This document shows positions 443-11,645 of a stretch of 12,658 bases of DNA, piece by piece (positions within the stretch are counted from its first letter, which is position 1; each line of letters starts with the position of its first letter). A model generated the notes under the pieces. The model saw nothing but the letters and a program-made list of their open reading frames with translations. It did not search any database and was not told the DNA's origin. The stretch spans positions 1-12,658 of the forward strand of contig JAGHZG010000007.1 of assembly GCA_017743275.1 (NCBI GenBank), given 5' to 3'. The stretch comes from Chloroflexota bacterium. Lineage in GTDB: Bacteria > Chloroflexota > Anaerolineae > B4-G1 > DUEL01. Position numbers and translations under genes: made by a program.

Positions 443-1198
443 TCACTCCGGCCTTTCGGGCTCTGAGGCCTTGCGCCAGCCCAGATGGGCCAGAAAAGCC
501 CGGTCCTCCTCGGTCAGAGGAGCCCGCTCCAGCAAGTCCGGGCGGCGTTCCAGGGTGCGCCGCAGGGCCTGCTCCCGCCGCCAGCGGGCAATCGCCGCGT
601 GGTTGCCCGAAAGGAGCACCTCCGGTACCGCCCACCCCCGAAAGACCGCCGGTCGGGTGTAGTGCGGATATTCCAGCAACCCCCAGGCATAGGAGTCCTC
701 AAACGTCGCCCCGGGGTCTCCCAGGACCCCCGGCAGGAGGCGGGTGACGGCGTCTATGATGACCATCGCCGCCAGTTCGCCCCCGCTCAGGACGTAGTCC
801 CCGATGGAGATTTCGTCGGTCGCCAGGTGCTCCCGTACCCGTTCGTCCACCCCCTCGTACCGGCCGCAGATCAGCACCAAGCGACGATAGCGGGAGAGTT
901 CCCTGGCTACCTCGTGAGTGAAGAGCCGTCCCTGAGGGGAAAGGAGAATTACAGGGACGCCTTTCTCGTCTCCCAACACGGCCTCTACGGCGGCGAAAAT
1001 GGGTTCGGGCTTCATCACCATCCCCCCGCCGCCTCCGTAAGGGGCATCGTCTGTTATGCGGTGACGTCCGGTGGCGTAGTCCCGGATGTTGTGCAGGTAA
1101 ACGGAAATGAGCCCGCGCTCCTGAGCCCGTTTGATGATGCTCTCCTGCAGCGGGCCAGTAAACATCTCCGGGAAAAGGGTCAATACGTCAAACCGCAT
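443..1198 (-). CDS. trmD: tRNA (guanine-N1)-methyltransferase TrmD
   Basis: TrmD methylates G37 next to the anticodon of tRNAs that read codons starting with C (Leu, Pro, Arg), using S-adenosylmethionine and preventing +1 frameshifting. The 251-residue length is usual for the family. Diagnostic motifs are present: [13 protein letters not shown] at the N terminus; [16 protein letters not shown] (51-66); [13 protein letters not shown] (109-121); the trefoil-knot SAM site [17 protein letters not shown] (129-145); and [18 protein letters not shown] (166-183), whose Asp168 fits the family's catalytic Asp. Start and coupling: the ATG lies inside the last codons of the TPR gene upstream (ATGCGGTTTGA, 11-nt overlap), so translation is probably coupled. 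No separate promoter was found. In many bacteria trmD sits with rpsP, rimM and rplS; here it follows a TPR gene. Confidence 0.97.
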
Positions 1199-3680
1199 CG
1201 TCTTTCAGGATGTCCTCTTGATCCCGTCCTTCCTCCACTGCGGCGAGGGCCGACGGGAGCAGTTCCCGCAGTTCCCAGGGGATCAGGACGACTCTTTGCC
1301 CCTCTACTGTTCCGTCGCTGAGCAGTCCATAGAGCCGCAGGCGCCCCATCAGAGTTTTCGGCAGGGCATAATACCAGTCCTGGCTGTCCTCCACGTCATT
1401 CCCGTAGCGGGCCGTGAATTCGTCCCAGGGGAAAATGCCGCCCGCAGCCAGAACGTCCCGCAGGGCCCGCCGCTCGTCCGCCTCCAGTTCGGCTACCGCC
1501 TCCTCCAGACGCTCCGGGTCCGTGATGGCCTCCACCAGGTGCTGGATCAGAGGCTCCTTGCGAAGCCCGACGTAGGGGGCAGAGTAGGTCCGGGCCGTCG
1601 CGACCAGCGATTCCCGGCTCAGCCGTTCCAGGCACTGGCGGAGCGAAGCATCGGGCGGGATGGGACGATTCCGCTTTCGCTCCCGATACTGGCGGGACCG
1701 CTGAGCAAGAATGTATAGGCCAGAATCGGGCTCCCGCAGTGCCAAAATCCAATCCAGTTGATGGAAGCGTTCATCATCCGGATTCCAGCTCAGAGCGGTC
1801 GTCACGTAAAAGCGGGCCAGAGCCAGGTCTTCTTCGTGGAGGCTGATCGCCGTCAGCGCTTGAAGGTATCTCAGAAACTCCCACAGGGTGAATTCCTGCC
1901 GGTCCGCCAGGACTTCCAGGCACTGGCGGGCCGCCGGGATGTCTCCCCGGTCCAGCGCGAGCAGGGCCAGCCCGGACCAGCCTCCCGCGTGCCGGGGGTC
2001 CAGTTCCACCGCTTTCCGGAAGTACGTCTCCATCTGGGACGGGTCGTCGGCCCACACCAGCGCCAGGAACGCGCAGAGGTCTGGGTTGTTCGGAGCGAAG
2101 GAGAAGATTTTCTCCGTCAATTTCTGCGCATCCTGGAGTCGGCCCTCTTTCATAGCCTGAACCACCTCCTCGGCCATCTCCATCGCCTGCCGGGGGTAGC
2201 GGTCGGGTTCAACCTCTACAATCTTCCAGCGCGGGACCCTCAGCCGCCGCCACTCCTGCCGGACCTCGTCCCAGAGTTCCACCGGTTGGGAAACGTCCAT
2301 CAGGCCCGCCTCATCCAGCGACTGCAACGCAACCATCCGTTCCGCCAGTTTCCCTTTTTGGGAAAAAGCGAAGCGCCGGAGTTCCTCCACAGCCTCCGGA
2401 GTGCCCAGGAGGGCGAGAATGTCTATCCACATGAAACGGGATCTGGACTCCTGGAACAGTTGGACCAACTGGGAAAAGACGATGGGGTAACGGGCGACCA
2501 GTCCCCGTAATCGTTTCTGGAAGGGTTTTCGGCCTATCTCCCCACTGCTCCATAAGGTCAGCAGTTCATCAAATTCATAGACTGCGCGCCGGGGCATCAA
2601 ATGTCCGAACTGGAAGGTGGGATACCGGTCGGCGATCCCCGGTCCAGGCGCTTTCCGGTTCGCGGCCGACATCAGGGCAGAGAGGGTCTCTACCGGTCTG
2701 CCCGAGTATGACATCGCTCGTTCCCAAAGCCGTAGGGCCGTCCGAAAATGACCCAGGTTGGCAGCGGCGGAACCGAGGACAATCAGGCCGGGCCCATCCG
2801 CTATCTCCTCAACCAGATGGCGATGCTGGCGATACAGACGGTATATTCCCTCATCATCGTTCAGGTATCCCAGCGTCACAACCGCATTTTCCAGGTCCAC
2901 AGGGGAATCATAGGATAGAGACCGGAGCGGCCGGGCCGCCGTCTCGGCCGCCTCCCGGTTGCCCAGGGCAAGATATGACCGGACCAGAAGGGGGATCGCG
3001 GCGTCCAGGTCCGGGAAGTCCTTCAGGAGTCGTTCGGCCACTTCTATGGCCTTCCGGGGTTGCCCGTCCATCAGCAGAATTTCCCCCTCTATCCCCCGGG
3101 GGGTAGGCCAGCGCGGGGCAAGAGAGGAAGCCCGGCGGAGGTGACGAAGGGCAGAGGAAAAGTCTTCCGCCTCCCCTGCCCGCCTCCCCAGTTCCAGTTC
3201 GTACATGGCCTCTTCCGCCCGGTCCAGAGGCAGGTCTTGCGCTTTGGCGAAATGGGTCAGCAGTTCCCCCAGTCCATCCAGAAGGTCTTGTGCCTCCTCT
3301 ACCAGTTCTTGGGGCAGGATGTCCCGGTACTCCACAAACTCCCGCAGCGAGCGCCAGGCGTGGGCCGTCAGGTCCATCTCGTTATACATCATCCCCAGAA
3401 GGTAGTAGGTGAGCAGGTTATCGGGGTCGCGCCGCTGCACCTCTTCCAGGGTTAGCATCGCCTCCTGCGGGTTCCCCAGGCTGGCCAGCAGAAGTCCCCG
3501 GACCATCAGGAGTTCCGGTCGGCGCTGGAGATGCAGGGGGGCCTCGTCCAGAACCTGCAGGGCCTCCTCAAATTTCTCTTCTTCCTGCAGAGCCCGGACC
3601 CGAGAGAGAATTTCTTCCAGTCCAGACCCCCGCGGGCTCAGCGGTGGCTGGGGGTGGCGGCGTTTGGGCTTTTTGGCCAT
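1188..3680 (-). CDS. large TPR-repeat protein with C-terminal SAP/winged-helix-like region
   Basis: This 830-residue protein has a basic N terminus (MAKKPKRR), no signal peptide and no membrane segment, so it is probably cytoplasmic. Tetratricopeptide-like helical pairs occur in three groups: about 30-145 ([31 protein letters not shown]), 165-325 ([51 protein letters not shown]) and 500-640 ([24 protein letters not shown] and [18 protein letters not shown]). Residues 675-815 differ: [27 protein letters not shown] looks like a SAP or Rho-N fold, then [17 protein letters not shown] and [11 protein letters not shown] look like a winged helix. That domain reading is inference. The function is unknown; TPRs normally mediate protein contacts. 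The start is supported by AAGGAG a few bases before the ATG. Upstream is a 16-unit heptamer array, and downstream the gene overlaps trmD. Confidence 0.85.
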
Positions 3681-3695
3681 AGTGCTCCTTTTTGC

Positions 3696-3807
3696 GGATC
3701 GCGTATCGCATATCGCAAATCGCGTATCGCGTATCGCTTATCGCTTATCGCATATCGCTTATCGCGAATCGCGTATCGCTTATCGCGAATCGCTTATCGC
3801 TTATCGC
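3696..3807. repeat. 16-unit tandem heptamer array, NNATCGC
   Basis: Sixteen consecutive 7-bp units fill exactly 112 bp without a register slip. Every unit ends in ATCGC and the first two bases vary (GG, GT, AT, AA, GT, GT, TT, TT, AT, TT, GA, GT, TT, GA, TT, TT). On the minus strand the unit is GCGATNN. The array lies in the leader of the TPR gene, a few bases before its Shine-Dalgarno. There are no spacers, so it is not a CRISPR. Confidence 0.97.
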
Positions 3808-3822
3808 GCATGGGGTTTGAAT

Positions 3823-3909
3823 GTAGCACAGGCCGCCAGGCACGTTGACGCAGGCTAAAGCCTATGCCACGCAGGCTGACAGCCTGCGCCACAAAAAATT
3901 TGGTGCTAC
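3823..3909. repeat. palindromic element bounded by GTAGCAC/GTGCTAC
   Basis: A 7-bp inverted repeat (3823-3829 / 3903-3909) encloses two hairpins: an imperfect GCAGGCT..AGCCTATGC (3850-3867) and CGCAGGCT..AGCCTGCG (3870-3877 / 3881-3888, 8 bp with a 3-nt loop). The same building blocks, GTAGCGCAGG and CAGGCTGTCAGCCTG, occur at 8071-8117, so this is a repeat family and not a one-off hairpin. Confidence 0.7.
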
Positions 3910-3928: not shown

Positions 3929-3975
3929 TTTCACGTCACGGTTCACGTTTCACGGTTCACGTTTCACGGATCACC
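3929..3975. repeat. short heptamer array, TTTCACG/GTTCACG, overlapping a stop codon
   Basis: The units are TTTCACG, a shortened TCACG, GTTCACG, TTTCACG, GTTCACG, TTTCACG and GATCACC. The last, degenerate unit contains TCA at 3971-3973, the complement of the TGA stop of the Mo-hydroxylase gene. The array therefore starts at that stop codon and runs downstream of the gene on the minus strand as (GTGAAAC)n. Confidence 0.9.
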
Positions 3976-6202
3976 GTCGCAGCCCCCTCCAAACCCGCTC
4001 CGGGGTCAGGGGGAATTCGTGGAACCAGACGCCGGTGGCGTCGCGGACGGCGGCGATGAGGGCCGGCGCGGCCGGAATGAACGGCATCTCCCCCATCCCC
4101 CGCGCGCCCCAGGGCCCGCGCGGGTCCGGCCTCTCCACCAGGAGCGACTCCACTCGCCCCGGGATGTCCAGCGCGGTGGGGATCAGGTAGGTGCTGAGCC
4201 GGTCGGTGAGGACCTGGCCCTGGCGAACGATAAAGTTCTCCACCGTAGCCCAACCCAGGCCCATCACCACCCCGCCCTCTATCTGCCCCTCCACCAGTTG
4301 GGGGTTGACCGCCTTGCCCACATCGTCGGCGCAGACGACGCGGGGAATCCGAATCTGCCCGGTCTCGGTATCCACCTCCACCTCCACCGCCTCCGCCACG
4401 TAGCCGTAGGCAAAATTAGGGGTGCCGTAGCCCGTTTCCGGCTCAAACTGGGTGGTCTTCGGGGCCAGGTAGGTGTATTCGGCGACGGCCGGACGCTCCT
4501 CCGCGCGCCACTTCTCCAGCGCGGCCGCCGCCGCCCCCCGCACAGCGTTCCCGGCCATAAAGGTGGTCCGGGAGGCAGAGGCGGAGCCGGAACTGCCGGG
4601 ACTGGTGGCGGTATCCGAGGGGACCAGGCGCACCCGCTCTACCGGAATCCCCAGCGCCTCGGCGGCCATCTGGGTGATGACGGTGTGAGCACCCTGCCCC
4701 ACTTCGGCGCTGCCGATATAGACGACGGCCTCTTCTATCTCCCCTTTCCCACGCAGTTCCACCTTCACCCAGCAGTTCTCCTGGTAGCCGAAGGAGAAAC
4801 CGACGTTCTTGAAGCCTGCGGCGAAGCCGATGCCCCGGCGGACCGGGCCGGAGGGCTGGGGGAGTTCGGGCCTGCGCCAACCCGCATCTGTTTTGGTCCA
4901 TCCCGCCGCCGCCGCGCAGCGCTCCACCACCTCCAACAGGTTGACGCCACCGGGAATGGGAGTGCCCATCGCGGTCAAACTCCCCTCCCGCAGGAGGTTA
5001 CGGACCCGCAATTCTACCGGGTCCATCTCCAGCGCCTCGGCCAGTTTGTTCATTTGCGTCTCGGCCAGGAAGATGCCCTGGGGCGCGCCGAAGCCCCGCA
5101 TCGCCGCGCTGGGCGGGTTGTTGGTGTAGTAGGCGTCCACGTCCACCTTGACGTTAGGGATTTCGTAGGGGCCAGTGCAGGTGACGGTCAGGTTGCCCAT
5201 AACTTTGTTGGTGGTGTAGCAGTAGGCGCCGCCGTCGGCGACAACGCGCACTTCGGCGGCCACCAGTTTCCCGTCCCGCGTCGCGCCCCACTTGCAGCGG
5301 GCCCAGACCGGATGCCGTTTACCGTGCCCGATGATGGACTCCTCCCGCGTCCAGACAATTTTCACCGGACGGCGAAGTCTCCAGGCCGCCAGGGCCAGGA
5401 CGATCTGGACGGACATGTCCTCCCGTCCGCCGAAGGCGCCGCCGATGGCCGGATAGACCACCCGAATCTGCTCCGGGGGGATGTCCAGCGCGTGGGCGAT
5501 CTGGCGTTGGTCCTCCCAGGTCCACTGCCCGGCAACGATGACCGTCACCCGCCCCTCCTCGTCTATGTAGGCCAGGCCGGCCTCCGGTTGAAGAAAGGCG
5601 TGCTCTTGAGAAGGGAGGCGATATTCGGCCTCTACAATGACGTCACACTGGGCCCAGGCGGCGTCTACATCCCCCTTGCGAATCTGGTGGTGACTGATCC
5701 AGTTCCCCTCCGTCCGGAGTTCCGGATGGATAGGGTTGGGAGCACGGGGCGGGTGGAGGGGATAAGCGTCCGGCTTCATGGCCTCCAGAGGGTCGGTGAT
5801 GACGGGGAGATCCTGGTACTCCACCCGGATGAGGTCACGGGCGCGGGCGGCGGCCTCCTCCGTCTCAGCGACAATGAGGGCCACCTGGTCGCCTTCCCAG
5901 CGGACGACGTCGGCGCCGGGTTTGGCGGAGCCGGGCCCGCAGAGGACCGGCTGGTCGGGGGTCTGCAGGCCGTACTCGTTGACGGGCACGTCCTTCGCGG
6001 TGAAGATGGCGACGACACCGGGGACCCTCTCCGCCTCGGCGGTGTCTATGCTCAGGATGCGGGCGTGGGGCCGCCCGGCGAAGAGAATCTTGGCGTGCAG
6101 CATGCCTGGCATGGAGAAGTCACCGGGATAGAGGGCCTCGCCAGTGACTTTGGCGCGGGCATCTACCCGGGGGATGGATTGGCCGACAATCTGTTCGGGC
6201 AT
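3971..6202 (-). CDS. molybdenum hydroxylase large (molybdopterin-binding) subunit, xanthine dehydrogenase family
   Basis: This 743-residue protein is the molybdenum-cofactor subunit of a xanthine dehydrogenase/aldehyde oxidase-type hydroxylase, which hydroxylates N-heterocycles or aldehydes with water as the oxygen source. It is near full length for a stand-alone large subunit. The first part (PRVDARAKVTGEALYPGDF, PHARILSID, VTAKDV-like 67-72, DDV-type loops) is the a/b hammerhead. Later come GGAFGGRED (254-262), AMRGFGAPQG (367-376), GSAEVGQGAHTVITQ (497-511) and GARGMGEMPFIPAAPAL (699-715). Glu705 corresponds to the catalytic Glu of xanthine oxidase. The AYRCSFR loop of form I CO dehydrogenase is absent, so it is not CoxL. 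SD GAGGAGGT lies 6 nt before the ATG. The FAD-binding and 2Fe-2S partners normally found beside it are not in the window. The substrate cannot be named. Confidence 0.93.
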   Translation of the reverse strand: MPEQIVGQSIPRVDARAKVTGEALYPGDFSMPGMLHAKILFAGRPHARILSIDTAEAERVPGVVAIFTAKDVPVNEYGLQTPDQPVLCGPGSAKPGADVVRWEGDQVALIVAETEEAAARARDLIRVEYQDLPVITDPLEAMKPDAYPLHPPRAPNPIHPELRTEGNWISHHQIRKGDVDAAWAQCDVIVEAEYRLPSQEHAFLQPEAGLAYIDEEGRVTVIVAGQWTWEDQRQIAHALDIPPEQIRVVYPAIGGAFGGREDMSVQIVLALAAWRLRRPVKIVWTREESIIGHGKRHPVWARCKWGATRDGKLVAAEVRVVADGGAYCYTTNKVMGNLTVTCTGPYEIPNVKVDVDAYYTNNPPSAAMRGFGAPQGIFLAETQMNKLAEALEMDPVELRVRNLLREGSLTAMGTPIPGGVNLLEVVERCAAAAGWTKTDAGWRRPELPQPSGPVRRGIGFAAGFKNVGFSFGYQENCWVKVELRGKGEIEEAVVYIGSAEVGQGAHTVITQMAAEALGIPVERVRLVPSDTATSPGSSGSASASRTTFMAGNAVRGAAAAALEKWRAEERPAVAEYTYLAPKTTQFEPETGYGTPNFAYGYVAEAVEVEVDTETGQIRIPRVVCADDVGKAVNPQLVEGQIEGGVVMGLGWATVENFIVRQGQVLTDRLSTYLIPTALDIPGRVESLLVERPDPRGPWGARGMGEMPFIPAAPALIAAVRDATGVWFHEFPLTPERVWRGLRR

Positions 6203-6220
6203 CGGTAGACCTCCTCGGGA

Positions 6221-6318
6221 AACGTGAAACGTAAGACGTGAAACGTAAAACGTGAAACGTAAAACGTAAAACGTGAAACGTAAGACGTGAAACGTAAGAC
6301 GTGAAACGTGATGCGTGA
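6221..6318. repeat. 14-unit tandem heptamer array, (A/G)ACGT(G/A)A
   Basis: Fourteen 7-bp units span exactly 98 bp. Position 1 is A or G and position 6 is G or A; the last unit is TGCGTGA. G and A at position 6 largely alternate (GAGAGAAGAGAGGG), suggesting growth by a 14-bp dimer. The array fills the whole gap from 1 nt after the small ORF's stop (6320-6322) to the Shine-Dalgarno of the Mo-hydroxylase gene (around 6209-6216). Confidence 0.97.
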
Positions 6319-6319
6319 G

Positions 6320-6604
6320 TTAGAACAGGGCCAGTTGGCGTACGCAGGGGGCAGTTTCGGCCAACGCCTTTCCTATTGCCTGTGCTTCCCCTGCCATTTC
6401 TTCCACCAGTTCGGCCAGAAAATCCTCCCTGGCGTCTATCGTTCCCTCCGCAACGGCGCGGGTGTAGAACTCCACCGTCTTACCCATAACCACGGTGAAG
6501 ACGTCCACCGGGTTCACCAGGAGCCCGGAGGCCAGGGTCCGCCCAATCCAGACCTCCGCGTCGGCCAGAATAGACCTTATCGGAAATAGGACACGGATGC
6601 ACAC
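6320..6604 (-). CDS. unrecognised small protein or gene remnant
   Basis: The frame encodes up to 94 residues. From about residue 12 on it looks like real protein: G/C-rich third positions as in the neighbours, and a helical composition with VNPVDVFTVVMGKTVEFYTRA followed by an acidic EDFLAELVEEMAGEAQAIGKAL and the end CVRQLALF. I do not recognise a family. The only ATG (6602-6604) lies inside a 10-bp tandem repeat (6591-6630) and has no Shine-Dalgarno, so the first residues MCIRV come from the repeat. Either translation starts at a non-ATG codon or the 5' end of an older gene has been lost. It ends 1 nt before the heptamer array and would be transcribed ahead of the Mo-hydroxylase. Confidence 0.45.
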   Translation of the reverse strand: MCIRVLFPIRSILADAEVWIGRTLASGLLVNPVDVFTVVMGKTVEFYTRAVAEGTIDAREDFLAELVEEMAGEAQAIGKALAETAPCVRQLALF

Positions 6605-6630
6605 GGATGGGTACGGATGAACACGGATTT
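6591..6630. repeat. 4-unit 10-bp tandem repeat, ACACGGATGN
   Basis: Four consecutive decamers: ACACGGATGC, ACACGGATGG, GTACGGATGA and ACACGGATTT. On the minus strand they read as ATCCGTGT repeats. Similar ATCCGTG-type repeats are, to my knowledge, widely scattered in bacterial genomes. The array overlaps the apparent start of the small ORF. Confidence 0.9.
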
Positions 6631-6649
6631 TGCTTTATTGGCTTCACTG

Positions 6650-6813
6650 TAACTACCTACCCGGCCGGCTTGTCGCTGTGCGCTGATGGGAAATCAGCCT
6701 CCCCTGGGCACGCTGTGCCGGGCGTCGGCCTGCGCCGACGCCCCCGGTCGGCGAAGGCCGACCGGAGGCCGAAGGCCTATGGCGGACGACTTTTGTCGGT
6801 ACGTAGGTAGTTA
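6650..6813. mobile_element. MITE-like element with 11-bp perfect terminal inverted repeats
   Basis: TAACTACCTAC (6650-6660) and GTAGGTAGTTA (6803-6813) are perfect inverted repeats enclosing 142 bp with no gene. Inside is a chain of hairpins: GCTGAT/ATCAGC (6682-6687/6693-6698), GGCAC/GTGCC (6707-6719), GGGCGTCGGC/GCCGACGCCC (6720-6729/6734-6743), CCGGTCGGC/GCCGACCGG (6744-6752/6757-6765) and AGGCC/GGCCT (6766-6778). Outside the termini, CGGATTTTG (6624-6632) faces CAAAAATCCG (6815-6824) as a second, outer inverted repeat. If TA is counted as a target duplication, the ends read ACTACCTAC..GTAGGTAGT flanked by TA, as in IS630/Tc1-type elements. That last point is inference. No transposase is present. 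Confidence 0.6.
6682..6745 (+). repeat. palindromic intergenic repeat, copy 2 of 3 (diverged)
   Basis: Within the 6650-6813 element, GATGGGAAATCAG, CCTGGGCAC, GTGCCGG and GCGTCGGC..GCCGACGC follow in the same order and almost the same spacing as GATTGAAATCG, CCTGGACAC, GTGCCAGG and GTGTCGGC..GCCGACAC at 8203-8268. Many differences are paired, so the hairpin stems are kept. For example, GTGTCGGC/GCCGACAC is replaced by GCGTCGGC/GCCGACGC. Confidence 0.65.
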
Positions 6814-6863
6814 TCAAAAATCCGCCGAATCTGTTCTCGTCTCTCCGACTCCATAGGCCATCA

Positions 6864-6888
6864 TCACGTTTCACGTTTCACGTTTCAC
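6864..6888. repeat. short heptamer array TCACGTT, ending in a stop codon
   Basis: Three perfect TCACGTT units (6864-6884) are followed by a partial TCAC (6885-6888). The TCA at 6885-6887 is the complement of the FBP aldolase/phosphatase stop codon. On the minus strand the array begins with that TGA, in phase. This is the same arrangement as at 3929-3975. Confidence 0.9.
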
Positions 6889-7982
6889 AGAATCGCCTCC
6901 CAGCGCCCCGCCAGTCTCTCCATGACCTGGGGGAGGGTGGTGTACTCCATTTCCTCCATCGGCAGCCGGTGGGGCTCAAAAGGGCCGTGGCGCCGGAAGT
7001 GGTCGGCGATGACGTTGCAGAGACGGCGCGCTTCGTCAAAGCCGGGGTCGTCAAACATATCCCGGGGCCCCACCAGCCGCCCTCCGGCAATCTGGAAGCC
7101 CAGGCAGACGACGCGCGGTGGGCCGTCAAACCGGCTGGGGGTGGCATGGTAGAGCGGTACGGGCATCAGCGGGCCGTAGTGGGAGCCCCGCATCCAGCCT
7201 TCCACGATGTGGGGCATGGTGAACGGCTCCAGCACCTCCCCGACGGCCGGAAAATCCCCCTGGCTGCGGACGATGCAGACGGGGTCGTCCTTGCCCACAT
7301 ACCGCCCGGCGATGAGAGCAAGACGCTGAGTGGAGGAAACGGCGGCAATCTCGCCCTTTTTGGTGTAGACGGCCTTGACCATGTAACGGCCCGGCGCGCC
7401 GATGAAGACCAGCAGGTCGTAGAGTTCCTCCGGCGTGTCAAAGAAGACCCGCCGATTCTCCTTGACATCGTGGACCTCAAAGCGAAAGCCGTCGTGCATG
7501 GCCGGGGAGATAACCAGACCGGCGGTGTTGAAAGGGTCGGCGAACATCCTGTAGAGGGGGAGATTCCAGGCCCCGGCGGAGGTTTTATCCGCCATAAAGA
7601 TGAGCACCGGCTCGGAGGGCCGCTCCGTGAACTCCATCTCCGCCACGCCGGGGCCCATGCCTTTGACGTTACCAGCGAAAGCGTCCGCCAGCAGGTCCTG
7701 CCCGGCGCCGTAGAGTTTCAGCCCTCTGGCAACATCCGTGCAGGCCTCAAAGGTCTCCCATGCCAGGCGGTGAATCTCCGGGCTATCCACCCCCTTCCGA
7801 TGGGTCATGACGAGTTGCAGGTCGTCGCCACAGGCGGTGACGTGAAAATCTACGATGAGGTCATCCTTCACCGCCGCTTCCAGTCGGTCCTCCGCCTCCT
7901 CTATCAGTTCGTCATAGACGCTGGAGTGGCCAACGAACCCGCCAACGTCGGCCTTGATGACGCTGAGGGTGATACGGTCCAT
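6885..7982 (-). CDS. fbp: class V fructose-1,6-bisphosphate aldolase/phosphatase
   Basis: This is the archaeal-type bifunctional gluconeogenic enzyme. It condenses glyceraldehyde-3-phosphate and dihydroxyacetone phosphate to fructose-1,6-bisphosphate and then removes the 1-phosphate in the same Mg2+-containing active site. The length (365 residues) matches the family. The metal and substrate residues known from the archaeal structures appear in order: Asp12 and His19 in KADVGGFVGHS, Asp53-Asp54 in CGDDLQL, Gln95, Asp132-Lys133 in ADKTSAGAWN, and Tyr206-x-x-Lys209 in VYTKKGEIAAVSSTQ, whose Lys fits the Schiff-base lysine. KDDP (231-234) and FTMPHIVEGWMRGSHYGPLMP (254-274) are also conserved. 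SD GAGGAGG is correctly placed before the ATG. The enzyme is common in archaea and deep-branching, often thermophilic, bacteria including Chloroflexota. Its stop codon lies in a heptamer repeat. Confidence 0.96.
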   Translation of the reverse strand: MDRITLSVIKADVGGFVGHSSVYDELIEEAEDRLEAAVKDDLIVDFHVTACGDDLQLVMTHRKGVDSPEIHRLAWETFEACTDVARGLKLYGAGQDLLADAFAGNVKGMGPGVAEMEFTERPSEPVLIFMADKTSAGAWNLPLYRMFADPFNTAGLVISPAMHDGFRFEVHDVKENRRVFFDTPEELYDLLVFIGAPGRYMVKAVYTKKGEIAAVSSTQRLALIAGRYVGKDDPVCIVRSQGDFPAVGEVLEPFTMPHIVEGWMRGSHYGPLMPVPLYHATPSRFDGPPRVVCLGFQIAGGRLVGPRDMFDDPGFDEARRLCNVIADHFRRHGPFEPHRLPMEEMEYTTLPQVMERLAGRWEAIL

Positions 7983-8037
7983 CTTTCCCTCCTCTGTTCT
8001 GTCCGGTCTGTCACAGTGGGGTTTCGTAGCACAGGAG

Positions 8038-8181
8038 GTAACTACCTGCCCGAATCGGCTTGCAGGTAACGTAGCGCAGGCTGTCAGCCTGTATGCAGGC
8101 CTGGCGGCCTGCGCTACAGGGGCAATATCTTTGCTGCATCCTGGATAGCGCTTGCCCAGAGGATCCCTGGGAGGTAGTTAC
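8038..8181. mobile_element. second MITE-like element, related ends to 6650-6813
   Basis: GTAACTACCT (8038-8047) and AGGTAGTTAC (8172-8181) are perfect 10-bp inverted repeats. The left end continues GTAACTACCTGCCCG..TCGGCTTG, matching the left end of the 6650 element (GTAACTACCTACCCG..CCGGCTTG), so the two share more than the terminal bases. The interior differs: TACCTGC/GCAGGTA (8043-8049/8062-8068) and the two hairpins listed at 8071-8117. No coding capacity. Confidence 0.55.
8071..8117. repeat. double-hairpin palindrome GTAGCGCAGG..CCTGCGCTAC
   Basis: A 10-bp perfect outer inverted repeat (8071-8080/8108-8117) encloses two competing inner hairpins, CAGGCT-GTC-AGCCTG (8077-8091) and GCAGGCC-TGGC-GGCCTGC (8095-8112). 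The parts resemble those of the element at 3823-3909. Confidence 0.8.
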
Positions 8182-8202
8182 TACGGGAGTAAGTATTCAC
8201 GC

Positions 8203-8268
8203 CGATTGAAATCGCCCTTCCTGGACACTTTGTGCCAGGTGTCGGCTTTCGCCGACACGCTTCCCATT
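8203..8268 (+). repeat. palindromic intergenic repeat, copy 3 of 3 (best preserved)
   Basis: CGAT-TGAA-ATCG (8203-8214) is followed by GGACAC..GTGCC (8223-8235) and by a perfect 8-bp hairpin GTGTCGGC-TTTC-GCCGACAC (8239-8258). The three hairpins recur in the same order at 136-202 (minus strand) and 6682-6745. Confidence 0.75.
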
Positions 8269-8314
8269 TGTGTGAAAGGGCAGCGAAGCCGCCGCTCCCA
8301 ACCCCCTATCGGCG

Positions 8315-9472
8315 CTACTTGAGTTTCTCCTCCCCACCGAAGGGCCGGTAGGGGCTCAGTTGATCCAGAATCTCCCGGTCTTCCGGGGTGAGGCTGTTTT
8401 GTACCATCCGGGTCAGAAGGACGCCGACGCCCGGCCCCAGCATGTACCCCTGTCCGCACATCCCGACGGCATAGATGTACCCCTCCAGTTCCCGCGCCCA
8501 GCCGATGATGGGAAAGCCGTCAGGGGTCATCGGATAAAGGCCCCGCCAGGTACGCCGCACTTTGATGTTGGCCAGTTTCGGCACCAGGTCCACCATCCGC
8601 CGGGCAATCATAGGCAGGAAGACGGAGGTCTCCCGGCGGTCGGTGCCGATGATGGGTGGTTCAGGGGTGATGCAGAAGACAACGGGGCCGGGCTTGTGCT
8701 GGTAGAAGTAGTAGTTCTTGGAGCCCTCAGCGGGGCGGATGTCCACCACCATCGGCTCCAGGAAACGGGCGACAGGTTCGGTGATGCCCGCCTCATGGCA
8801 ATCCGGGGTCACGGGGACGTCCAGCCCGGCCATCTGGGCCACCGCCCGCGCCCAGGGGCCGGCAGCGTTGATCACCACCTCGGTGGCATAGCCGCCCCGG
8901 TCGGTCCGCACGCCCACGACCCGTCCCCGGCGGCGGATGATGCCGGTGACCCGCTCTCGGAAGTGGAACTCGGCGCCCCGCTCCCGCGCCCGTATGTAGA
9001 ACGCGTGCGCTGTCAGCAACGGAGAGGCTGAACCGTCACCCGGGGAGTACGTCCCGCCGATCAGCCCCTCCGGATTCAGGTCCGGGATGACCTGCAGAAG
9101 GTCGTCCCGGTCCAGCCAGCGGATGTTCAGCCCGTAGGACTGCTGGACTTTCAGCAGGCTCTTGAGGACTTGCTCCTCCTGCTGCCGGTAGGCGACGAAG
9201 GAGTACCCGCCCTGGTACCATTCAATGTTGTCTCCATAGATCTCCTCCCAGGTGGAGAAAATCTCTATGGACTTCAGGCAGAGGCGGATTTTGGCGGGGT
9301 CAGAGTGAGTGGCGCGGATGCCGCCGATGGCGGCCTTGTTGGAGCCCTGTCCGGGACTGGCGAACTGGTCAATCACCAGAACTTTCAGGCCGGCATCGGC
9401 CATAAAGAACGCTGCGGGCAGGCCGATGCTCCCGGCGCCGACAATCACGACGTCGTAGGTCTGGGTGGTCAC
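8315..9472 (-). CDS. FAD-dependent oxidoreductase, DAO family (sarcosine oxidase beta-like)
   Basis: The 385-residue protein belongs to the D-amino-acid oxidase/glycine oxidase/sarcosine oxidase superfamily, flavoproteins that oxidise the C-N bond of amino acids or N-methyl compounds. The N-terminal dinucleotide-binding fold is YDVVIVGAGSIGLPAAFFMADAG (GAGSIG 12-17) with Asp35 at the ribose-binding position. INAAGPWA (201-208), PMTPDGFPIIG (314-324) and GMCGQGYMLGPGVG (337-350) are typical FAD contacts. The substrate is not predictable. I chose GTG at 9470-9472 because GGAGGT lies 5 nt upstream and the Rossmann fold starts a few residues later. A longer frame opening at 9595 only translates the heptamer repeats. 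The usual sarcosine oxidase alpha, gamma and delta partners are not nearby. Confidence 0.9.
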   Translation of the reverse strand: MTTQTYDVVIVGAGSIGLPAAFFMADAGLKVLVIDQFASPGQGSNKAAIGGIRATHSDPAKIRLCLKSIEIFSTWEEIYGDNIEWYQGGYSFVAYRQQEEQVLKSLLKVQQSYGLNIRWLDRDDLLQVIPDLNPEGLIGGTYSPGDGSASPLLTAHAFYIRARERGAEFHFRERVTGIIRRRGRVVGVRTDRGGYATEVVINAAGPWARAVAQMAGLDVPVTPDCHEAGITEPVARFLEPMVVDIRPAEGSKNYYFYQHKPGPVVFCITPEPPIIGTDRRETSVFLPMIARRMVDLVPKLANIKVRRTWRGLYPMTPDGFPIIGWARELEGYIYAVGMCGQGYMLGPGVGVLLTRMVQNSLTPEDREILDQLSPYRPFGGEEKLK

Positions 9473-9485
9473 AGGAGACCTCCGG

Positions 9486-9569
9486 GAAGCGTGAAGCGTG
9501 AAACGTGAAACGTGAAACGTGAAACGTGAAGCGTGAAACGTGAAACGTGAAACGTGAAGCGTGAAGCGT
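9486..9569. repeat. 12-unit tandem heptamer array, GAA(A/G)CGT
   Basis: Twelve units of GAAACGT or GAAGCGT span exactly 84 bp. The G variants are units 1, 2, 7, 11 and 12, at both ends and the middle. The array occupies the gap between the mltG stop (9574-9576, four bases away) and the Shine-Dalgarno of the FAD oxidoreductase (about 9478-9483). Confidence 0.97.
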
Positions 9570-9573
9570 GATG

Positions 9574-10749
9574 TCAGGGGACGGTGCCACCACACGAGGC
9601 GTAGTTGGCGTTGTGTTCTGCTTCGGTGCGGGCGAAGAGGTGGCTACCGTCGTTCTTGTGACAGTCGGCGATGAAGTAGAAGTAGTCGGTCTGGGCCGGG
9701 AAGGCCGATGCCTGGATGGATGCCAGGCCCGGACTGCAGATGGGGCCCGGAGGCAGGCCGGGGTAGCGGTAGGTGTTATACGGGTGGTCTATGTCGGCCA
9801 GGGAGTTGATGCCCAGTTCGTCAAAGTAGAGCCGACGCCACCAGGTCCCCCTCCGTTCGTCGTAGCCCAGGGCATACTGGACAGTGGGGTCGGCGTTGAG
9901 AAGCCAGCCGTTCCGCAGCCGGTTAAAGAAGACGCCGGCGATGATGGGCCGCTCCTCCGGAATGACCGCCTCCCGCTCCACCAGCGAGGCCAGGGTGACC
10001 AGTTGGTGGACGGTCAGGCCCTGGTTGGCGGCGCTCAACCGCATCTCCTCGGTCACCCGCGCGTCAAAGATCGCCAGCATGCGCGCCACCACGTCGTAGG
10101 CCGTCACCTCCTCCGGCAGGCGGTAGGTCTCCGGGAACAGGTATCCCTCCAGCGTGGCCTCCGGCGGCAGGTCGGCCAGGAAGGGATAGTTCTTCAGGTC
10201 GGTCTCCCGCCAACCGATGGTCGCCAGGGCGATGAAATCCGCCTCGGGGATGCCGGTCTGGGCGGCGACGGTGGCGGCGACCTCCTCCAGGCGGAGCCCC
10301 TCACGGACCGTGAGCACCCGCTCCGGGCGCCGACCGCTCTGCAGCGCCTCGGCGATCTGAGGGATGGTCATCGTCTGGCGCAGGGTGTAGGTGCCGGCCT
10401 CCAGGCCAGCGTCCATGCCCTTATACTGCAGGTATCGCCGGAAGAGTTCAGCGTTGGAGATGAGGCCGGCCTCCTGGAGCCGCCGGGCCACCTCCGCCGC
10501 GGTCTCGCCGGGCTGGACGACGAAGGTGACCGGGGTGTTATCGGTGCCGGCGGGGCGCTGGAGTTCCTCCGCGTGCATCTGGATGTAGGTCTCCAGAGCA
10601 ACCTCTCTGGGGGAACCTGCTGCGCTGATGTTGCAGATAGAGAGACCCAGCGCTCCGGTCTGGCGGAACGCCCAGAAACTCCCGCCAACGATGACCCCAA
10701 CCGAAGCCAAAGCCAGCAGAAAGGCAACAACGCGGGTTGTCTGTTTCAT
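9574..10749 (-). CDS. mltG: endolytic murein transglycosylase MltG
   Basis: MltG is an inner-membrane lytic transglycosylase that cuts nascent peptidoglycan strands and sets their length. The 391-residue protein has one N-terminal membrane anchor (about 6-25, VVAFLLALASVGVIVGGSFW), a LysM-like region (75-145, VTFVVQPGETAAEVARRLQEAGLI), and the YceG catalytic domain: LEGYLFPETY (200-209), LVTLASLVEREA (250-261) with Glu258 at the catalytic position, LNADPTVQYALG (284-295), YNTYRYPGLPPGPICSPG (324-341) and FIADCHKNDGSHLFARTEAEHN (359-380). The ATG at 10747-10749 is supported by GAGGTGA just upstream; the frame is open further, but only through an octamer repeat. It is downstream of ruvX, as in many bacteria where yqgF and mltG are neighbours. 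Confidence 0.96.
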   Translation of the reverse strand: MKQTTRVVAFLLALASVGVIVGGSFWAFRQTGALGLSICNISAAGSPREVALETYIQMHAEELQRPAGTDNTPVTFVVQPGETAAEVARRLQEAGLISNAELFRRYLQYKGMDAGLEAGTYTLRQTMTIPQIAEALQSGRRPERVLTVREGLRLEEVAATVAAQTGIPEADFIALATIGWRETDLKNYPFLADLPPEATLEGYLFPETYRLPEEVTAYDVVARMLAIFDARVTEEMRLSAANQGLTVHQLVTLASLVEREAVIPEERPIIAGVFFNRLRNGWLLNADPTVQYALGYDERRGTWWRRLYFDELGINSLADIDHPYNTYRYPGLPPGPICSPGLASIQASAFPAQTDYFYFIADCHKNDGSHLFARTEAEHNANYASCGGTVP

Positions 10750-10766: not shown

Positions 10767-10826
10767 ACCGAAGGCACAAAGGGGAGTGGACATTGGCAAT
10801 GCCTTGTGTCTTCGTGTCTTTGTGGT
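10767..10826. repeat. octamer-type repeat, degenerate inverted copy
   Basis: GTGTCTTC (10806-10813), GTGTCTTT (10814-10821) and GTGGT (10822-10826) match the right arms of the two hairpins at 11504-11632. ACCGAAGGCACAAAGG (10767-10782) is a decayed left arm. It lies between mltG and the DUF2283 gene. Confidence 0.75.
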
Positions 10827-10831
10827 GATTT

Positions 10832-11493: not shown

Positions 11494-11503
11494 GTTCTTG
11501 AGA

Positions 11504-11632
11504 ACCACCAAGACACGAAGGGGGAAATTAACAACAAACAAATCTTTGTGTCTTCGTGTCTTCGTGGTAAAAATCTCAGAACCACCAAGACACGAAGGCA
11601 CGAAGTTTTTTGTGTCTTCGTGTCTTCGTGGT
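11504..11632. repeat. two tandem hairpins built of 8-bp repeats
   Basis: ACCACCAAGACACGAAG occurs at 11504-11520 and again at 11581-11597. CTTCGTGTCTTCGTGGT occurs at 11552-11568 and again at 11616-11632. Each left copy pairs with the following right copy over 17 positions with one mismatch (loops of 31 and 18 nt). The right arms are 8-bp tandem repeats, GTGTCTTC twice plus GTGGT. The block fills the gap between ruvX and the baseplate-like gene. CACGAAGACACGAAG-type repeats are, to my knowledge, found in many unrelated bacterial genomes. Confidence 0.92.
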
Positions 11633-11645
11633 GAAAACCAAAACC

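Follow-up and report, generated by a model that had tools for sequence, protein, structure and literature searches.

A 12,658-nt stretch of a Chloroflexota bacterium genome (assembly GCA_017743275.1, contig JAGHZG010000007.1; hereafter the window) carries four tandem arrays of a 7-bp CGTGAAA-type unit in the gaps between its genes. The unit consists of a nearly fixed GTGA core and a varying three-base spacer, and a sister family in the same genome combines a GCGAT core with a free two-base spacer. Mapping and orthologous comparison in close relatives showed that the arrays are resized by whole units and lodge between the stop codon of one gene and the Shine-Dalgarno sequence (SD) of the next. 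The most likely reason for this design is a process that recognises or copies the four near-constant letters at the DNA level, and we tentatively prefer recognition by a protein.

Heptamer arrays in the window

The program TRF located period-7 arrays at 3936-3974, 6219-6311 (13.3 copies), 6864-6888 and 9486-9571 (12.3 copies), confirming the four ACGTGAA-type arrays that an earlier reading of the letters alone (the sequence-only reading) had reported. The 20-base pattern CGTGAAACGTGAAACGTGAA, with up to three mismatches, matched 29 times in the window, each time inside these four arrays, and had 0 matches across 200 dinucleotide-preserving shuffles of the window. The 7-bp register, described before as exact, is kept in the arrays generally; the exception is a brief interruption (CGTGACG TGAAA) where the 3929 array has its lowest coordinates.

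Every one of the ten called genes of the window is on the minus strand, so the arrays at 3929 and 6864 have CGTGAAA as their sense-strand sequence and those at 6221 and 9486 have it antisense. The two sense arrays supply or abut the TGA stop codon of the preceding gene. One of them (3929-3975, minus strand, about six units) overlaps with its first unit the TGA at 3971-3973 of a molybdenum hydroxylase gene, and the other (6862-6889, minus strand, about four units) starts within the TGA at 6885-6887 of a fructose-1,6-bisphosphatase gene. The antisense arrays, which read TTTCACG along the genes, run from just after one stop codon to just before the next SD. The array at 6216-6318 (plus strand, 13-14 units of CGTGAAA, CGTAAAA and CGTAAGA) occupies the gap between the stop of the open reading frame (ORF) at 6320-6604 and the SD of the molybdenum hydroxylase subunit. 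The array at 9483-9572 (plus strand, 12-13 units of CGTGAAA and CGTGAAG) occupies the gap between the YceG/MltG stop codon (9574-9576) and the SD and GTG start of an FAD oxidoreductase gene. The gene calls thus bear out that the two largest arrays, at 6221-6318 and 9486-9569, nearly fill their stop-to-SD gaps.

Distribution in the genome, its relatives and other phyla

The window's genome (G000; 2.26 Mb in 442 contigs, 77% complete) contained 144 + 102 = 246 CGTGAAA-type matches with up to two mismatches, against 0 + 1 for a reversed-pattern control, and such matches were present in 26 of 41 genomes, its own included. The view that the arrays form a dispersed family was therefore upheld. Within the genus, counts were very patchy, from 0 in G005 (93% complete) to 500 in G003 (96% complete). 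In a Chloroflexota-wide sample, 11 of 400 genomes, its own included, had a match at one mismatch or fewer. In another Chloroflexota genome (G368), the reversed control pattern, an AAGTGCA heptamer, gave 309 matches and marks another genome-wide heptamer family.

An exact 27-mer scan of named genomes returned at least 116 stretches, and the matches listed included records of 11 phyla besides Chloroflexota, as grouped by our own taxonomy applied to record titles. Titles among the matches listed named Desulfococcaceae/Desulfobacterales, Verrucomicrobia, Uhrbacteria, Beta- and Gammaproteobacteria, Thermoanaerobaculia, Nitrospira, Flavobacterium/Bacteroidales, Gemmatimonadota, Planctomycetota, Latescibacterota and Neomarinimicrobiota. 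Lone contigs binned from metagenomes may carry the wrong label; several contigs each stand for Desulfobacterota, Verrucomicrobia, Thermoanaerobaculia and Gemmatimonadota, and Nitrospira is represented by the complete chromosome of Nitrospira defluvii, which holds an exact array. The supposition of a Chloroflexota counterpart was not supported by this comparison, the family being no speciality of that phylum. A search of plasmid sequences with 301 bases around the array at 9483 gave no match.

A fixed core and a variable spacer

Among 593 units from sense and antisense arrays of G000, G003, G004 and a more distant relative (G037), positions G2, T3 and A5 were changed 6, 5 and 1 times, respectively, and position 4 was changed 53 times, always from G to A. 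The spacer positions 1, 6 and 7 showed 75, 48 and 139 changes. Positions 2, 3 and 5 showed no difference between orientations (5 of 978 positions changed in sense arrays and 7 of 801 in antisense arrays, p = 0.39), though the figures for G000 alone were 0/441 and 5/348, respectively. The stretches from other phyla are independent of those that revealed the core and were picked by an exact 27-mer that covers the unit positions almost evenly. In their 715 units, core positions 2-5 had 25 changes and spacer positions 222; here 113 of 116 stretches were grouped, with L134, L157 and L210 left out and two stretches titled 'uncultured bacterium' assigned to Chloroflexota. Array by array, with those three stretches included (112 arrays, 739 units), the change rate was lower in the core in 69 cases, higher in 10 and tied in 33 (p = 6e-12). 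The contrast was present in G000, G003, G004 and the other Chloroflexota taken singly. Of the seven cyclic 4-mers, GTGA changed least in five of six sets; one of those five (other Chloroflexota) appears to have a few contigs in common with G003 and G004. When units were conditioned on other 4-mers, the contrast was weaker and positions 2, 3 and 5 were still low in most cases; the ACGT row of this comparison is distorted because ACGT is self-complementary.

The core also recurs with other spacers. G012 had only 7 CGTGAAA-type matches but 116 to (GTGANNN)4GTGA (control, 3), with spacers that include TGC, GGC, GAC and TAC; units among the matches listed were mostly GTGATGC, GTGAGGC and GTGAGAC. 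The commonest GTGA spacers were AAC, AGC, GAC, TAC, TGC and GGC, with the first base mostly A and the third mostly C.

The sister family is represented in the window by a 16-unit array of GCGAT plus a free dinucleotide (3694-3808, minus strand), which lies before a TPR gene. The pattern (GCGATNN)3GCGAT had 198 matches in the window's genome (control, 0), 189 in G001 and none in G005-G007. Across 10 arrays, 15 of 755 core positions and 103 of 302 spacer positions were changed, although all stretches except the window's own array were picked with the core fixed, which favours a low core change. By eye, 15 of the 16 possible dinucleotides occurred as spacers among the matches listed. Over 143 period-7 arrays, the contiguity of variable columns was 0.79, close to the 0.76 obtained with permuted columns (0.64 if changes were uniform), so that a contiguous core/spacer split is specific to the GTGA and GCGAT families and is not a property of all heptamer arrays.

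At fourfold sites, 22-29% of positions differ between G000, G003 and G004, and a nearly invariant core must therefore be kept by selection or constant renewal. The sequence-only reading had argued from constant unit length for copying or selection of the 7-bp period. Its conclusion gains from the unit being far from neutral, with GTGA held while the spacer varies; its argument from register against slippage is not supported, since slippage by whole units also preserves register. Conservation of the stop codon was rejected as a general cause of the core, as antisense arrays hold the same core and GCGATNN arrays have no fixed stop.

Placement between co-directional genes

Using a gene finder of our own, we mapped 126 arrays of at least three units in stretches retrieved from five genomes; most stretches were picked for carrying the repeat, so array densities are not usable as estimates. 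Among 106 arrays flanked on both sides, 13 lay between convergent or divergent genes; the rest comprised 50 sense and 43 antisense arrays. Taken together, G000, G003 and G004 had 83 co-directional arrays and 4 others, an excess over the 78.5% of gap bases (p = 2e-5) and the 84% of gaps (p = 0.003) that are co-directional; in G003 alone, the comparison with gaps gave p = 0.11. Placement between stop codons and ribosome sites, as first read from the window, thus holds in these three close genomes in both orientations (83/87 co-directional). Arrays at random positions, including within genes, or a family confined to one contig are mostly not what we found; 15 of the 126 arrays lay mostly inside called genes and 5 at contig edges. 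Ten of these 15 were inspected, and five overlapped gene ends. The other five were inside a called reading frame and read as peptides such as SRFTFHV; one of them, 29 residues from the start, may reflect a miscalled start. Arrays provide stop codons, start codons and in-frame stretches and therefore distort gene models, which deserves attention in annotation.

Arrays filled a median of 75% of the gap when sense and 47% when antisense, and the gap left over beside them (medians 24-30 nt) was somewhat shorter than gaps without arrays (32-49 nt). The preceding gene's stop was supplied by 22 of 46 sense arrays and 0 of 38 antisense arrays, because TGA comes up in all frames within three sense units. 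Where the slack exceeded 40 nt, 12 of 15 sense arrays were nearer the stop and 12 of 20 antisense arrays nearer the start. Aimed placement beside the SD was rejected: 65 of 84 arrays lay at most 25 nt from the start, against 61 +/- 3 expected from uniform placement in the same gaps, so that the arrays fill gaps and are not aimed at the SD.

In G037, some arrays lie in long called frames (L275 9878-9912, L276 3407-3427 and L285 9964-9984) beside repeat-like peptides (TTDYGLR, QHSALSTQHS and RISGSAD), and such in-frame repeats may supply protein linkers. Arrays of this genome also often form close inverted pairs that could fold into hairpins (for example C70:3812+/3835- and C186:5074+/5111-).

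Turnover at orthologous junctions

Among 104 conserved co-directional gene pairs, compared pairwise with partial overlap and in stretches partly picked for arrays, an array of at least two units was present in both species in 17 cases, in one only in 11 and in neither in 76. Conserved arrays differ by whole units and retain some unit order (L083/L098; junction L083/L098/L254), which is the unit gain and loss that the sequence-only reading had proposed to look for. The array at 9483 is missing from the G004 counterpart, where our gene calls leave 32 bases. Where G000 has a CGTGAAA-type array at one junction (L064/L095/L251), G003 has a GACAACTG hairpin and G004 a 20-bp tandem repeat. Several junctions hold a different repeat instead, be it another heptamer, a 20-bp tandem or a hairpin of GACAACTG...CAGTTGTC; the comparison of junction contents rests partly on an earlier version of the gene calls. 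REP-like hairpins with GACAACTG...CAGTTGTC or GGATAACTGTGAACAGTTGTCC were seen in G003 (L095 and L031) in gaps that hold heptamer arrays in G000. By eye, two heptamer families follow each other within one array, with the 7-bp register intact, at L066 (~1238-1333) and L086 (~9558-9670).

The CGTAAAA variant occurred in 23 of 47 arrays in G000, 3 of 28 in G003 and 0 of 26 in G004 (p = 3e-6), and the AGTGAAA variant in 13 of 47, 19 of 28 and 5 of 26, respectively (p = 2e-4). Units of like variant were clustered within G000 arrays (81 observed vs 49 expected), and lag-2 unit repeats in this genome resemble two-unit duplications. Spread from locus to locus is indicated by these lineage-specific variants, which recur at many places, and by the way junction contents turn over.

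Interpretation of the unit design

We rank recognition at the DNA level first, selfish copying primed by the core second, neutral slippage third and an RNA-level role fourth. The arrays are resized by whole units and lodge where they are least harmful, namely in the stop-to-ribosome-site gap of co-directional genes in the close relatives. Retention of the core in both gene orientations and in many phyla suggests that a sequence-specific protein recognises GTGA in double-stranded DNA. A hypothetical protein of this kind could bind each 7-bp register side by side, and the arrays would then act as docking platforms that load it at many operon junctions. A constant core at strict pitch, with a spacer free to vary, is what one would expect of protein sites set in a row; the closest documented case is omega/ParB of plasmid pSM19035, and MetJ on 8-bp boxes is another. 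Docking of a predicted protein on the arrays in the manner of omega/ParB is a plausible proposal that still falls short of probable. The wider idea, that the GTGA and GCGAT arrays of 7-bp pitch in a dozen phyla are the footprint of one DNA-reading system, either a filament protein docking at junctions or a copying machinery annealing through the core, appears rather doubtful.

Several observations weigh against DNA recognition of the core. Profile searches with Omega_Repress, RHH_1, RVT_1 and the Y1 transposase yielded no candidate core-binding protein. Omega_Repress (PF07764) matched 0 of 12 genomes, but it had no match in control genomes either, so that this zero carries no information. RHH_1 (PF01402) was found in 9 of 12 genomes and did not track the arrays: array-free G005 has it, and no match turned up in the array-rich G000 (77% complete) and G028. 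The core/spacer contrast was not seen in G037 (13 vs 8, p = 0.38), where 9 arrays were co-directional and 9 between convergent or divergent genes, and the 14 arrays of an AATTACG family showed no clear core. Also on this side stand the choice of GCGATNN stretches by their core and the five arrays within called reading frames. Unrelated repeats can occupy the same gap in sister species, which speaks against a conserved gene-specific role. Finally, the 7-bp heptad consensus of plasmid pSM19035 (WATCACW; PMC9499535), compared below, has a different spacer, being GTGA plus TWW on the other strand.

The arrays could instead be self-propagating filler with no host function. They would start up at new loci and be renewed from other arrays through slippage, gene conversion or template switching, with the short core as the annealing site and the spacer filled in loosely; the core would be fixed because copying needs it, and arrays would survive where they are harmless. 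This is a real possibility to which we give somewhat less credence than to DNA recognition, and much of the turnover fits it: the CGTAAAA and AGTGAAA variants at many loci of single lineages, the clustering of like units in G000 (81 vs 49), the 17/11/76 split of the 104 conserved pairs, the three different repeats of G000, G003 and G004 at L064/L095/L251, the patchy counts within the genus (0 to 500) and the arrays in frame within genes. It leaves the recurrence of one core in 12 phyla unexplained, however, and multi-unit blocks were shared between loci only weakly more than in shuffles (k = 4: G000 46 vs 25, G004 27 vs 11 and G003 19 vs 15), with local two-unit duplication as a further possible source of shared blocks. 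A REP-associated Y1 transposase was rejected as the mover; it occurred in 9 of 16 genomes without tracking array number, was not found in G000 and G368 and was present in array-free G005 and G013. Arrays made as cDNA by a telomerase-like reverse transcriptase would have the core as alignment region and the spacer as template, and the split is formally similar to that of DRT10, which is reported in a preprint to produce short tandem-repeat cDNA with a 4-nt alignment segment (PMC12632851). We consider this extremely improbable: RVT_1 was found in 5 of 12 genomes including G000 but not in G001, G004 and array-rich G003 (96% complete, 500 array matches), and the idea was rejected on the G003 result, obtained with this one model. 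Moreover, spacers vary within single arrays, which is unexpected from one template.

Plain replication slippage of neutral intergenic DNA, with period 7 as a polymerase contact length (a proposal cited in PMC4692102 and PMC4679880), is disfavoured by the column contrast and is unlikely. Register-keeping and two-unit repeats fit it, as do the many other heptamer families (139 unit consensuses among 465 period-7 arrays). Period 7 was also the commonest intergenic period in sampled stretches (51/85 in G000 and 32/83 in G003), but the repeat itself had been the reason for picking about half of the stretches from G003 and the majority of those from G000, and the share was 6/25 in unpicked G001 contigs and 1/14 in G005, all in a census that rests on an earlier version of the gene calls. 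Neutral drift, moreover, would alter all columns and give array-specific units, yet one unit and one core recur across loci and phyla. An RNA-level role at the junction, as a ribosome standby site, a re-initiation relay (GTGA being an overlapping GTG start and TGA stop) or a translation-regulator site as proposed for TAACTGA, is less likely still. It would account for arrays between stop and SD, for the stops that sense arrays supply (22/46, against 0/38 antisense) and for TGA in all three frames of sense units, the complement TTTCACG having no stop. However, orientations were about equal (50 sense and 43 antisense) and the core equally constrained in both, so no single RNA sequence is selected, and a fixed stop is absent from GCGATNN arrays. 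Nor is the CGTGAAA array notably free of structure: six units fold at -10.1 and -6.0 kcal/mol on the two strands, and 3 of 60 unit permutations are unstructured on both. An unstructured-RNA spacer, an idea prompted by the TAACTGA study (PMC4679880), is thus unsupported for CGTGAAA by the folding energies.

Neighbouring genes and other repeats of the window

The genes around the arrays lie on the minus strand throughout, and those with a Pfam match have metabolic or house-keeping functions. Between the arrays at 3929 and 6216 lies the molybdopterin-binding subunit of a xanthine-dehydrogenase-like enzyme (3971-6202; MoCoBD_1/2 and Ald_Xan_dh_C). The upstream neighbour of the 6216 array is the small ORF at 6320-6604, which had no Pfam match, and that of the 6862 array is the fructose-1,6-bisphosphatase (FBPase_3; 6885-7982). 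The array at 9483 has an FAD-dependent oxidoreductase (DAO; 8315-9472) downstream and a YceG/MltG-like protein (9574-10749) upstream. A TPR-repeat protein (1188-3680) is encoded downstream of the GCGATNN array.

The sequence-only reading had overlooked the GCGATNN array at 3694-3808, the all-minus-strand gene layout and a 10-bp tandem array at 6591-6628 (plus strand, 3.8 copies), which by eye consists of ACGGATG plus three variable bases. Octamer repeats of the (A)CACGAAG type occur at 10790-10830 and 11500-11640, near DUF2283 and RuvX genes. Two elements at 8038-8181 and 6649-6815, the second with its right end placed by eye, are bounded by inverted GTAACTACCTNCC / GGNAGGTAGTTAC ends and are possibly MITE-like. 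Repeats of the GTAGCGCAGGCTGTCAGCCTG type were seen at 3830-3895 and 8071-8117, and a relative of this repeat forms a tandem of more than 10 copies within one gap in G004 (L251).

Comparison with known repeat systems

Cyanobacterial STRR heptamers, as in Calothrix, are tandem heptamers in intergenic DNA with different sequences. The CGTGAAA family resembles this class in having a tandem 7-bp unit at many loci, a mostly intergenic position and whole-unit change at orthologous junctions. In the library searched, no paper has any of four 14- or 15-letter stretches of a CGTGAAA array, so that the presumed novelty within Chloroflexota was not contradicted. Among the matches listed for heptamer or tandem repeats in Chloroflexi, Planctomycetes and Anaerolineae, none concerned a CGTGAAA repeat by title.

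The GGGNATC / GGGGA(C/T)T heptamer arrays of Xanthomonas and Nostoc (Rehm et al. 2015, PMC4692102) are likewise built of 7-bp units, abundant, dispersed, mostly non-coding and scarcer between divergent ORFs, and their unit number varies at the same junction in sister species. Their G-rich strand lies near the stop when sense and near the start when antisense, a tendency that CGTGAAA arrays with more than 40 nt of slack may share (12/15 sense and 12/20 antisense). Unlike them, CGTGAAA is unrelated in sequence, is found in a wider range of phyla and has no G-runs and hence no G-quadruplex. The published GGGNATC unit has a free N, and sections 3, 13 and 16 of that paper contain no fixed-core/free-spacer analysis. 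The TAACTGA repeats of Beggiatoaceae, Cyanobacteria and Bacteroidetes (MacGregor 2015, PMC4679880) are also heptamer arrays upstream of start codons in unrelated phyla, with 7-nt indel steps and other heptamers intermixed. In the Maribeggiatoa genome, the forward orientation of TAACTGA dominates and SDs are rare (PMC4679880), whereas GTGA arrays are split 50 to 43 between sense and antisense, differ in sequence and by eye often end just before an SD.

The tandem hepta- and octanucleotide elements of Geobacter metallireducens are predicted binding sites of global regulators (PMC2700814). They are similar in being dispersed 7- or 8-bp units with a degenerate consensus (MTYCTGA and GTTGCTYN) interpreted as binding sites, and they differ in sequence, in having three to five units and in the pairing of several classes on opposite strands. 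In pSM19035, the ribbon-helix-helix (RHH) protein omega/ParB binds contiguous WATCACW heptads, direct or inverted, of which at least four are needed, with one dimer per heptad (PMC9499535). These parS heptads are, like the CGTGAAA units, contiguous non-palindromic 7-bp repeats, and their TCAC core is the complement of GTGA; they serve as a plasmid partition and promoter element at six sites (PMC9499535).

Intergenic heptamer arrays are thus an already known kind of element (PMC4692102, PMC4679880, PMC2700814), and the papers considered here give no settled reason for seven or for the choice of sequence. Two things look new: the CGTGAAA sequence family, with the many phyla that it spans, and the division of its unit into core and spacer. 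A fixed core and a varying spacer, common to unrelated phyla and blind to orientation, make the choice of this heptamer a testable question: what reads GTGA at a 7-bp pitch.

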